The notes below the pieces were generated by a model that worked only from the letters and a program-made list of their open reading frames with translations, was not told the DNA's origin and ran no database searches. Position numbers and translations under genes: made by a program. A stretch of DNA of 39,291 nucleotides from Gemmatimonadota bacterium (GTDB lineage Bacteria; Latescibacterota; UBA2968; UBA8231): the NCBI GenBank assembly GCA_002712305.1, contig PATE01000127.1:1-39291 (forward strand), in the 5' to 3' direction. Positions 43-2,925 of the stretch are shown piece by piece (positions within the stretch are counted from its first letter, which is position 1; the number at the start of each line of letters is the position of its first letter).

Positions 43-78
43 AAAAAAAACCGGGCGCGCCGCTGCTGGCGCGCCCGG
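43..78 (-). terminator. Strong intrinsic terminator for a leftward transcript
   Basis: An 11-bp perfect GC-only stem pairs 51-61 with 68-78 around the six-base loop 62-67. On the minus strand it is followed directly by eight T residues (complement of A43-A50). This is a textbook rho-independent terminator for a transcript running right to left. No conventional protein gene lies upstream of it on that strand, so it ends either a small RNA or an attenuated leader. Confidence 0.92.
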
Positions 79-156
79 GATACCTCAAGGTCACTGGCGT
101 ATTAGGCCAGCAACACTGCCAGGTGGGAGACCACCTGGTCCTAACTCAAGTGGACG

Positions 157-195
157 TTAGGTGGTCTCACCTCCTGCGGGTATACAACTACTCAA
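157..195 (-). CDS. Possible 12-codon leader peptide
   Basis: A TTG start at 195-193 opens the reading frame MSSCIPAGGETT and ends in TAA at 159-157. The start lies six bases downstream of AGGAGG within an unusually long Shine-Dalgarno match (minus strand 209-197). The 3' half of this small frame overlaps a second AGGAGGTGA and the 9-base element that can pair back with the first Shine-Dalgarno. Translation would therefore be expected to alter the folding of the RNA. Ideal start spacing and placement inside the switch-like structure favour a leader peptide. Its short length means it could also be chance. Confidence 0.4.
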   Translation of the reverse strand: MSSCIPAGGETT

Positions 196-374
196 AGACC
201 ACCTCCTTTCATATCGGCGCTTCAAGTCATTACACCGGCCCGACAGCGGGTGGGCCGCCGCGATACAGGTGACTCTCTACGCTCGTCCACGGCCGTGCAG
301 CACTTCACCGCATAAGCGGCGGGATTTACGGCCGGTAGCAAATGCTTGGGCCGATGATTTTCATCGACGCCTGA

Positions 375-404
375 AATGTAGCCCGGTCGTGGAATCAGCG
401 TCAA
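375..404 (-). promoter_or_regulatory. Sigma70-like promoter for the leftward small transcript
   Basis: On the minus strand TTGACG (404-399) and TACATT (380-375) are separated by 18 bp; reading the -10 as CTACAT gives 17 bp. The predicted start is near 368. It is the best promoter match in the first 450 bases and points toward the structured region and terminator. Confidence 0.6.
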
Positions 405-446: not shown

Positions 447-453
447 CTTGCAG

Positions 454-1194
454 ATGAAGAATCGACTCTGGATCCTCCTGATCGCCCTGTTGAGTGGCGG
501 CTGTTCTAACGACTCGGGCGATGCCGTCGTGATCTCGGCGGCCTCGAGTCTGACCTATGCCCTCGAGGATCTTGTCGGTGCATATCGTCAGGCGAATCCC
601 TCAGCACCGCCGCTGCGCCTCAACTTCGGCGCCACCGGTGTACTCGCTCAGCAGATCCGCCAGGGCGCCCCCGTCGATCTGTTCGTCGCCGCCGATAGCC
701 GCGAGTTCGACTCGTTGCGACTAGAGCAGTACCTGACTGACGATGAGATTCGCTTCGAGGGTCGCCTCGTCATCTGGTGTCGACAAAACGCAGCCTGTCC
801 CGAGAACCTGGGTCAACTCGATCAGCCGGAGATCCGCCGTATCGCCATCGCCCATCCCGAAATCGCGCCCTATGGACAGGCAGCCGTGACGGCACTGCAA
901 ACCCTCGGATCGCACGATAGACTCGTCCCTCGGTTGATTCAGGGCCAGACGGCGCGAGCGGCCCTGCGCTATGCGGAAACCGGTGACGCCGATGTCGCCC
1001 TCACCGCGCAGTCGCTGGCCCAGTCTGTGGGCGGTCGTTGGACGGCCGTGGACGATGCGCTCTATCCGCCCATCGAACAGGGCATTGCCGTGGTGAAACC
1101 CTCATCTCAACCGGCGCAGCACTTTTTCGATTTCGTCGGGAGTCCAACAGGGCGCCAGATCCTCGACCATCACGGCTTCCACGGGGTGCGATGA
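454..1194 (+). CDS. modA: Molybdate ABC transporter, substrate-binding lipoprotein ModA
   Basis: ModA captures molybdate (or tungstate) outside the inner membrane and delivers it to ModBC. The 246-residue product starts with a lipoprotein signal (MKNRLWILLIALLSGGC), with the lipobox cysteine near residue 17, so it should be membrane-anchored. The mature part opens with the ISAASSL segment whose serines bind the oxyanion in this family. It continues with LNFGATG and PVDLFVAADSREFD, all typical of ModA. A TTG two codons earlier is possible, but the ATG gives a cleaner signal peptide. The stop overlaps the modB start (ATGA), which indicates translational coupling. Confidence 0.93.
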   Translation: MKNRLWILLIALLSGGCSNDSGDAVVISAASSLTYALEDLVGAYRQANPSAPPLRLNFGATGVLAQQIRQGAPVDLFVAADSREFDSLRLEQYLTDDEIRFEGRLVIWCRQNAACPENLGQLDQPEIRRIAIAHPEIAPYGQAAVTALQTLGSHDRLVPRLIQGQTARAALRYAETGDADVALTAQSLAQSVGGRWTAVDDALYPPIEQGIAVVKPSSQPAQHFFDFVGSPTGRQILDHHGFHGVR

Positions 1195-1841
1195 TCGACC
1201 CACTCTGGTTGTCGCTGAAGGTGACCGCTGTCGCCGCGATCCTCATCTTCACCATCGGCACCGCCCTCGCATTGTGGTTGGTGCGACACCAGCCCCGGGG
1301 GCGAACCGTGATCGAGACATTGATCATGCTCCCCTTGGTGTTGCCACCCTCGGTGGTGGGATACTATCTGCTCATCGTCCTCGGTCAGCAGGGCCCCATC
1401 GTCGGTTGGCTGGGCATTCAGACGCTCTTTTCTCCTGCCGCCGCCATCATTGCCGCCACTGTCGTCGGCCTGCCACTGATGGTGCAGGCGGCGCGCGCCG
1501 CGCTGGCCAGTGTGGATCCCGCCCTCGAGCAGGCGGCCAGAACCCTGGGCTGCAATGAGGCCATGGTCCTGTGGCGTGTATCCCTACCATTGGCTCGTCG
1601 TGGACTGCTCGCCGGCCTCGTATTGGGAACAACACGGGCCCTGGGAGAATTCGGCGCCACCCTGATGGTGGCCGGCAACATCCCCGGCCAAACGCAGACG
1701 CTCCCGCTGGCCATCTACGACGCGGTGCAGACCAACCAGCACGATCTGACGACCCAGATGGTCCTGCTCATGACCGGACTCGGCTTCGTCAGCCTCTGGG
1801 CGGTCCGTCGCTGGGAACCGAGCGTTGGACGCGCCAAGTGA
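1191..1841 (+). CDS. modB: Molybdate ABC transporter permease ModB
   Basis: ModB is the inner-membrane channel of the molybdate importer. The 216-residue protein begins MIDPLWLSLKVTAVAA, the usual start of ModB, and has about five hydrophobic segments. The EAA loop that docks with the ATPase is visible in its last third (EQAARTLGCNEAMVLWRVSLP). Shortly after it comes GATRALGEFGATLMVAGN-like sequence, here GTTRALGEFGATLMVAGN, which is highly characteristic of ModB/CysT permeases. The start chosen is the ATG that overlaps the modA stop; a longer frame upstream only reads through modA. The modC start lies eight bases beyond the stop. Confidence 0.93.
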   Translation: MIDPLWLSLKVTAVAAILIFTIGTALALWLVRHQPRGRTVIETLIMLPLVLPPSVVGYYLLIVLGQQGPIVGWLGIQTLFSPAAAIIAATVVGLPLMVQAARAALASVDPALEQAARTLGCNEAMVLWRVSLPLARRGLLAGLVLGTTRALGEFGATLMVAGNIPGQTQTLPLAIYDAVQTNQHDLTTQMVLLMTGLGFVSLWAVRRWEPSVGRAK

Positions 1842-1848
1842 ACAGTTC

Positions 1849-2925
1849 ATGAGTCGCCTTCAAGTACACGCCCATCGGCGCTCTGCAGATTTCGAACTCG
1901 ACGTTGACTTCGACATCGATGGAGGCATCCTCGTTCTGTTCGGTCCGTCGGGAGCCGGCAAGACCTCGACGCTGAATGCCATCGCGGGACTGCATCCTCT
2001 GGACGACGGCAGAATCGTCGCCGACGGTACCGTCTACTACGACCGTGCTCAGGGCATCAACCTGCCGGCACGCCAGCGTCGCCTCGGGTACGTGTTTCAG
2101 AACTACGCCCTGTTCCCCCACCTGACCGTGCTCCAGAACATCGCCTTTGGCCTCGGTCGACACCGTGATCGATTTGAGCATGCCCGCCAGTGGTTGTCTC
2201 AGATGCACATGAAGGAGTTTGTCGATCGGTATCCCCACGAGCTTTCTGGGGGTCAGCAACAGCGGGTCGCACTGGCTCGTGCCCTGGCCCATCGCCCCCG
2301 GGTGCTGCTGCTCGACGAACCTTTCGCCGCCCTCGATCGCGTTCTGCGCGAACGATTGCAGGCCGAACTTCGACAGCTGCAGAAGGATCTGTCCCTCGTC
2401 GTGGTCTATGTGACCCACTCTCTCGACGACGCCTTCGCCGTGGGCGATCGCATCGCCGTACTCCAGGAGGGCAGAGTTCTGCAGCAAGGCCCCCTCGACG
2501 ATGTCTTCCAGCGCCCACAGAGTGAACAGGTCGCCGAGATCCTCGGGATCCGCAATCTGTTCCGTGCGGACATTGTCGGCACGAACCTCGATTGGCTGGG
2601 ACTGACGCTCCAGGCAGAGGTGACCGAGCGCGATAGCGGGAACGTGGCCGTGTACATTCAGCCCTCGGAAGTAAAGATCATTTACCCAGAAGCTCCGGTT
2701 GCCGAGGGTTTGCTCGGCAATCTGTTCGACGCCGAGATCATCACTCGGCAACGGCACGCCGCAGGCTGGTCCGTACGGGTTCGATTGAGCAACGAGCAGA
2801 TGATCGAGATCCATCACGCCACGACGGCCTACAGCAAACTCGATCTCAGCACCGGCACCACAATCCGTGTCGCCTTGAGACGCGAGGCGCTGCAGATTCT
2901 TCGACGGGGTGACCCTGCCTCATAG
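1849..2925 (+). CDS. modC: Molybdate ABC transporter ATP-binding protein ModC
   Basis: ModC is the cytoplasmic ATPase that energises molybdate import. The 358-residue product has Walker A (GPSGAGKT, about residues 33-40), the Q-loop (YVFQNYALFPHLTV), the ABC signature LSGGQQQRVALARAL, Walker B (VLLLDEPFAALD) and the H-loop YVTHS. The C-terminal 120 residues match the regulatory TOBE/molybdate-binding region of ModC by position, including VYIQPSEVKI. I chose the ATG at 1849 over an in-frame TTG at 1825, which would overlap modB. The order modA-modB-modC with overlaps or short gaps indicates one operon. hemY follows after 48 bp and may be cotranscribed. Confidence 0.93.
   Translation: MSRLQVHAHRRSADFELDVDFDIDGGILVLFGPSGAGKTSTLNAIAGLHPLDDGRIVADGTVYYDRAQGINLPARQRRLGYVFQNYALFPHLTVLQNIAFGLGRHRDRFEHARQWLSQMHMKEFVDRYPHELSGGQQQRVALARALAHRPRVLLLDEPFAALDRVLRERLQAELRQLQKDLSLVVVYVTHSLDDAFAVGDRIAVLQEGRVLQQGPLDDVFQRPQSEQVAEILGIRNLFRADIVGTNLDWLGLTLQAEVTERDSGNVAVYIQPSEVKIIYPEAPVAEGLLGNLFDAEIITRQRHAAGWSVRVRLSNEQMIEIHHATTAYSKLDLSTGTTIRVALRREALQILRRGDPAS

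Follow-up and report, generated by a model that had tools for sequence, protein, structure and literature searches.

A conserved small RNA gene of Latescibacterota with two ribosome-binding sequences and a 12-codon frame, probably akin to Ms_IGR-5

A stand-alone RNA gene at the left end of the contig

The window, that is, the whole stretch of DNA analysed (39,291 nucleotides, the entire contig PATE01000127.1), carries at its left end a stand-alone RNA gene on the minus strand that occupies positions 43 to ~368 and has an expected transcript of about 326-333 nt. The initial annotation had described a self-contained RNA unit bracketed by a promoter and a strong terminator; the unit has its own promoter and its own terminator and is conserved in relatives, and a check of the sequence places every element named in that annotation where it had been reported. 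The features are as follows.

375-404, minus strand: sigma70-type promoter from a consensus scan, TTGACG (404-399), 18-nt spacer, TACATT (380-375)
211-368, minus strand: structured 5' domain of ~155 nt, specific to the window's Latescibacterota family by DNA identity and comparison
197-210, minus strand: SD1, also arm 1, GAAAGGAGGTGGTC, an extended complement of the 16S rRNA 3' tail
157-195, minus strand: sORF of 12 codons with TTG start and TAA stop, peptide (M)SSCIPAGGETT, from the sequence and from homologue geometry
179-183, minus strand: ATACC, 5' strand of what may be a long-range closing helix, whose pairs 7 homologues retain
168-175, minus strand: SD2, AGGAGGTG, within the sORF and ending 8 nt 5' of the stop codon, from the sequence and from homologue spacing
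159-171, minus strand: arm 2, GGTGAGACCACCT, 5' strand of helix c, from 2:3 covariation
125-136, minus strand: arm 3, AGGTGGTCTCCC, 3' strand of helix c, from 2:3 covariation
119-138 (138-131 with 126-119), minus strand: possible 3:4 hairpin, CCAGGTGG-TCTC-CCACCTGG, alternative to 2:3, in the minimum-energy fold, without covariation support
80-84, minus strand: GGTAT, 3' strand of the possible long-range closing helix, pairs kept in 7 homologues
43-78, minus strand: intrinsic terminator from a terminator scan and aligned relatives, CCGGGCGCGCC-AGCAGC-GGCGCGCCCGG plus T8, 11 pairs

Given the promoter, transcription is expected to start at about position 368. TTGAC and TA..T boxes recur 5' of the element in other family members, and in other phyla such boxes directly precede SD1; in aligned family members the terminator is in the equivalent position. 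A congener shows 87% DNA identity across the whole element. Other families lack the 5' domain, and their expected transcript start is ~6-10 nt away from SD1; the domain may serve as a sensor or form an RNA part of its own. Sister genera partly keep it, in the GAAGNGCTGC region.

The initial annotation had singled out an exceptional match to the 16S tail, and this match holds against the 16S 3' ends of four other members of the family, one of which belongs to the same genus (the window's own MAG yielded no 16S 3' end). These ends read GGATCACCTCCTTTCTA, with which SD1 pairs at 15 positions, one of them G-U, at -25.8 kcal/mol, and SD2 pairs at -19.0 kcal/mol. The sequence AAAGGAGGTGRTC has a single occurrence in the 4.77-Mb genome, at SD1, which is the longest ribosome-binding match of its genome (14-15 pairs to the 16S tail), and GAAAGGAGGTGGT is invariant across a 17-sequence family alignment. 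SD2, the second ribosome-binding sequence, is likewise present (AGGAGGTG(A) at 175-167 when the following A is counted), and both repeats are conserved in homologues. The frame that contains SD2, which the initial annotation had also seen, reads TTG AGT AGT TGT ATA CCC GCA GGA GGT GAG ACC ACC TAA (195-157). Its last part overlaps a 9-base portion of arm 2, AGACCACCT (167-159), that is complementary to both copies of AGGTGGTCT, at 204-196 and at 136-128, and thereby to SD1 as well as to arm 3.

Distribution of the RNA and its relation to Ms_IGR-5

A DNA search found diverged copies within the window's family, and a covariance model built from 7 window-type copies (R1) matched 22 of 25 family genomes, with one strong copy in each. 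A pattern scan for the wider layout (extended SD, sORF mostly beginning NTG-AGT, GAGGTG ~30-40 nt later, nearby stop and structured 3' part) showed that this layout recurs in Acidimicrobiia, Binatia, Sumerlaeota and Planctomycetota. A second covariance model, R2, followed, and found one copy in each of the 16 test genomes from which the pattern-scan loci had come. R2 matched 41 of 47 genomes of the window's Latescibacterota class (13 of 13 among those of best quality) and 112 of 296 sampled Actinomycetota genomes. Among 386 further sampled genomes of every degree of kinship, it matched 19 that lie outside the phylum, and all but a few of these have the complete layout. Each genome has a single copy; in the window's own genome the sole R2 match is the window locus, with SD1 contributing 27 bits, much of the total score. 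Homologues of the kind that the initial annotation had proposed to seek in related genomes are thus found in family and class, and also in other phyla. We conclude that the locus almost certainly encodes a real, conserved RNA of ~330 bases. Seven candidate loci were set aside: L007, at the start of RNase G, and three pattern matches in Hydrogenedentota and Rhodothermaeota (L051, L088 and L100) resemble ordinary protein starts, and L219, L226 and L146 are unlikely members.

Ms_IGR-5 (RF02471 in Rfam) is an actinobacterial sRNA of unknown function, and at the Actinomycetota loci RF02471 matches the same places as R2. Outside that phylum, the best genome-wide match of RF02471 falls on loci of the present family in Binatia (E = 4.5e-7), in Latescibacterota family f3 (8.8e-7), in Acidimicrobiia (7e-8 to 9e-7), in Sumerlaeota (3e-4 and 0.002) and in one planctomycete (0.002); bit scores are 38-39.5 in f3 and 38.7 in Binatia, against an Rfam gathering threshold of 45. 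Within the window's own family, f1, RF02471 matches the locus only in one genome, G015, with E = 0.9; it has no match in the window and none at the locus in the window's own genome (G000), and the window copy thus stays below the gathering threshold of 45 bits. Rfam scans of the window at gathering and at low thresholds returned chance-level matches only.

The anatomy of the two RNAs corresponds closely. The window-type RNA, as Ms_IGR-5, is an independent gene with one copy per genome, a terminator and no fixed downstream gene, and the window copy contains the complete Ms_IGR-5 layout of 5' extended SD, sORF, SD2 in the GAGGTG region and nearby stop. Shared further are the stop 11 nt after the GAGG of GAGGTG and the GGTGRCTG:CAGYCACC helix, and the Rfam consensus itself holds GGAAGGAGGUGGUCC and an open sORF ending GAGGUGGCUGCCCGCUAG. 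The helix between the GAGGTG region and the (C)ACC strand is present and covaries. The window copy differs from Ms_IGR-5 in its ~155-nt extra 5' domain, in an arm 2 that is complementary to SD1, in an sORF frame that reads GG. rather than EV., in a score below the Rfam threshold and in a continuous helix c that has no AATCC internal loop of the type seen elsewhere, this loop being reduced or absent in window-type copies.

RF02471 by itself gives only a weak signal on window-type copies (E = 0.9 in G015 and no match in G000), the window helix has no AATCC loop, and SD1, being fixed by the 16S tail, could converge; a strong ribosome-binding site before a small ORF might, accordingly, have arisen independently of Ms_IGR-5. 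We consider such independent origin rather unlikely, since canonical copies are found in f3 and f4 of the same class and an R2 search found no second canonical copy in f1 genomes, since the order promoter, SD1, sORF, SD2, stop, helix and terminator is the same, and since the G015 match of RF02471 lies exactly on the locus, with a single copy per genome. Because a chain of copies runs from family through class to other phyla, because the anatomy is shared and because f1 has no other canonical copy, we conclude that the window RNA is very probably akin to Ms_IGR-5, as a distant and unrecognised relative. Rfam would then cover only the actinobacterial part of a widespread RNA family, and the window RNA would belong to that family's branch in Latescibacterota. 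The family name and the actinobacterial part were already known; comparison of sequences now appears to join this orphan sRNA to unannotated RNA genes in Latescibacterota, Acidimicrobiia, Binatia, Sumerlaeota, Planctomycetota and other bacteria.

Published expression and ribosome association concern the actinobacterial members: Ms_IGR-5 transcripts are reported in S. lividans (PMC8079986), S. avermitilis (PMC8780764) and M. smegmatis (PMC10454040), and homologues are ribosome-protected in M. abscessus and M. smegmatis (PMC4974804). A search of open-access papers on Ms_IGR-5 found neither a function nor a mention of the sORF. An identity with Streptomyces scr2736, considered on account of the neighbourhood, was dropped; Rfam assigns RF02471, and S. 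lividans lists both RNAs at different places (PMC8079986).

CC2171 (RF01867), a Caulobacter sRNA, resembles the family in its 5' end, GAAAGGAGGUGAUCCAGUG, and in its terminator, and the best genome-wide matches of RF01867 fall on family loci in three genomes (G545, G610 and G088; loci L222, L223 and L220). Its consensus differs in having neither SD2 nor a short sORF, and the window scores 11.4 bits against a gathering threshold of 75. We do not claim homology, because only SD1 and the terminator align (L222); CC2171 may likewise be a translated RNA of this type.

SD2-to-stop spacing and pairing of the SD2-to-stop strand

To define the geometry of the sORF we used 86 homologues less than 80% alike, and scored an sORF of 9-16 codons that starts 5-13 nt after SD1 and stops 9-12 nt after the GAGG of SD2. 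This geometry is present in 79 of the 86, against a mean of 1.5 and a maximum of 7 in spacer shuffles, a count that is partly ascertained, because the models hold columns around SD1 and the stop codon, and that is uncorrected for phylogeny, the homologues not being phylogenetically independent. The 12-codon frame of the initial annotation is accordingly one instance of a conserved mini-ORF. Of 85 homologues, 84 have 6-9 nt between the end of GAGG and the last sense codon, and 62 have exactly 8 nt. The frame of SD2 relative to the sORF is EV. in 63 of the 85, GG. in 12 and GR or similar in 10, so that the GAGGTG segment is read in three frames in different clades and gives unrelated peptide ends, while its nucleotides and its distance from the stop stay constant. 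SD2 occurs in all three frames, yet the stop distance is fixed, and it is therefore the spacing, not the peptide, that is kept. Judged from the sequences compared, the SD2-to-stop spacing is the most constant feature of the family. The 8 nt between GAGG and the last sense codon resemble the spacing between an SD and a start codon, and this geometry suggests that SD2 would be in register with the anti-SD of a ribosome at the stop codon.

Start codons of the homologues are often weak: TTG (34), ATG (22), GTG (14), CTG (12) and ATC or ATT (3). In L129, L140 and L155, the sORF apparently starts with ATT or ATC, like infC. The ATT and ATC starts, together with the many CTG starts, hint at sensitivity to initiation fidelity (IF3).

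The initial annotation had proposed mutually exclusive hairpins, to be judged by covariation of their stems. The 333-nt transcript is predicted to fold more stably than shuffles (z = -4.9). Pairing of arm 2 with arm 3 and of SD2 with arm 4 forms a single long bulged helix (171-159 with 136-125), and the real alternatives are therefore 1:2 and 2:3. Helix 2:3 stands up well: in 17 family copies, pairs form in 97% of cells and 22 cells are changed on both sides, a result that 0 of 500 shuffles reach. The 1:2 pairing can form in 96.6% of cells in the same copies, with no double (compensatory) changes, and has no independent support, because arm 1 hardly varies. The 3:4 hairpin appears in the minimum-energy fold, is absent from the centroid and gives nothing above shuffles in the covariation test. 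Of the proposed hairpins, one stem, 2:3, is thus borne out by compensatory changes; 1:2 is borne out as pairable, and 3:4 gains nothing.

In a comparison of 85 homologues, pairing of the SD2-to-stop strand is better with the downstream sequence of the same homologue than with those of others (29 in the top tenth, 8.5 expected). Masking of SD1 by a downstream arm reaches z < -2 in 10 of the 85, mostly acidimicrobial members, and we rejected universal masking of SD1 in favour of a lineage-specific property. A possible long-range pairing, ATACC:GGTAT (183-179 with 84-80), links the middle of the sORF to the base of the terminator; 5 of 5 pairs are kept in 7 of 7 homologues, and 4 pairs are doubly changed, all in one sequence (the L008 lineage). 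For a closing helix b:b' across the whole family the swap test was not significant; several lineages have plausible pairs.

Proposed translation-gated folding and its alternatives

Kin in several phyla with the same start-stop layout suggest that ribosomes translating the mini-gene control the fold of the RNA, and our best reading, which we put forward tentatively, is a translation-gated RNA. According to this hypothesis, a 30S subunit would bind SD1 through nearly the whole 16S tail, initiate, in most members at a codon other than AUG, and give rise to a ribosome that reads 9-16 codons to a stop at which SD2 is in register for the anti-SD. SD2 would probably hold the ribosome there, before or after release. 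The size of the pausing caused by SD sequences is debated, and it is from the geometry that we infer holding at stop codons by SD-like sequences. A ribosome over SD2 and the stop region would prevent formation of helix c (2:3), and helix c would close in the absence of ribosomes or after their rapid departure. An arm 2 free of helix c could, in the window's lineage, pair with SD1 and thereby shut the site of ribosome loading, and opening of helix c would expose this anti-SD arm. The fold would then reflect how available ribosomes are, or how they terminate or are recycled, and one of the two states would presumably be the form in which the RNA acts in trans. The logic of a ribosome-responsive switch, suggested in the initial annotation, is in this form retained as the preferred mechanism, with conserved SDs, mini-ORF and covarying helix 2:3 in its favour; masking of SD1 shrinks to a lineage-specific trait and the 3:4 hairpin falls away.

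The initial annotation had also raised attenuation of a gene to the left, and the leader-peptide-like anatomy, the alternative pairings and the terminator would suit a cis attenuator or leader. As the window spans the entire contig, the left gene is not visible in the window's own genome; in the neighbourhoods of relatives, the lineages have no downstream gene in common, many neighbouring genes are convergent (such as the response regulator that comes next in the congener), the terminator is complete and forms a fixed 3' end, and no anti-terminator is seen. The RNA resembles trp-type leader-peptide attenuators in having a short ORF and arms 1, 2, 3 and 4 with alternative pairings, but differs from them in having no conserved downstream gene, a terminator outside the alternative hairpins and no run of regulatory codons. 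Because no downstream gene is conserved, we conclude that the RNA is an independent gene; a cis attenuator is very improbable, and largely refuted already. In genus g7 (L061, L067, L070, L089, L093 and L098) a co-directional oxidoreductase-like gene starts just past the terminator, and a lineage-specific read-through effect may occur in that genus. On the other side of the element in the window lies a divergent modABC-like operon (448-2925, plus strand) for a periplasmic substrate-binding protein, a permease and an ABC ATPase; G002 has a similar divergent binding-protein gene beside the element.

Three further explanations concern an independent RNA. The RNA might exist for its peptide (of the SEVAEA, GTLEVAGR or SSCIPAGGETT type), its structures only tuning translation or stability: the sORF is retained in nearly all homologues, many members end in EV(A/T/P)xx and mycobacterial homologues are ribosome-protected (PMC4974804). 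Such a small mRNA is nevertheless unlikely, given that the GAGGTG segment is read as GG., GR. or EV. with nucleotides and stop distance constant, that N-terminal residues vary freely and that helix c covaries. The RNA likewise resembles dual-function sRNAs (SgrS/SgrT, VcdRP) as a small RNA carrying a short ORF, and differs from them in that the SD-stop spacing, not the peptide, is conserved and in having no known target. Titration of 30S subunits had also been raised in the initial annotation. A 30S sponge or hibernation RNA, whose SD1 and SD2 would do no more than sequester free 30S subunits or reduce the capacity for initiation, could account for two strong anti-SD partners, one of them unique in the genome, and for a single copy per genome with its own promoter. 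For a pure sponge, an open frame, a fixed stop distance and a covarying helix would be superfluous, and titration would require an RNA level near that of ribosomes; we consider this possibility slightly less likely still. Base-pairing with target mRNAs is a common mode of action for bacterial sRNAs, and a stand-alone gene with a terminator, carrying an arm 2 (AGACCACCT) and CACC segments complementary to SD sequences, could act through these CACC or anti-SD-like strands, with translation of the sORF only regulating availability or turnover. No conserved single-stranded seed is seen beyond the anti-SD-like segments, however, and the helix strands covary, so that the sequence of each strand is free to drift; we judge this explanation to be about as improbable as a sponge.

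Taken further, the translation-gated reading would make the RNA one of a widespread, single-copy class of ribosome-state-sensing RNAs across several phyla, partly filed as Ms_IGR-5, in which two SDs matched to the start and the stop of a 9-16-codon frame load and then hold a ribosome whose occupancy is coupled to a conserved switch, and in which non-AUG starts add sensitivity to initiation fidelity. We regard this extension as possible but doubtful. The design feature itself, an SD whose distance from the stop of a mini-ORF hardly varies, whichever frame it is read in, is not mentioned in the open-access Ms_IGR-5 papers searched and is testable: since the family has members in Mycobacterium smegmatis and Streptomyces, existing ribosome profiling and genetics could test SD pairing at termination in a natural RNA.

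A second, minimal version of the design is found at L171-L174 (G004, G011, G008 and G017), L030-L032 and L225, and some genomes have both versions. It consists of a strong SD, a 10-12-codon sORF that ends ..TWRCAV, ..TWRATAR or ..TRRWVV with TGGAGG or AGGAGG inside, a stop codon in or beside a strong hairpin, and a terminator.
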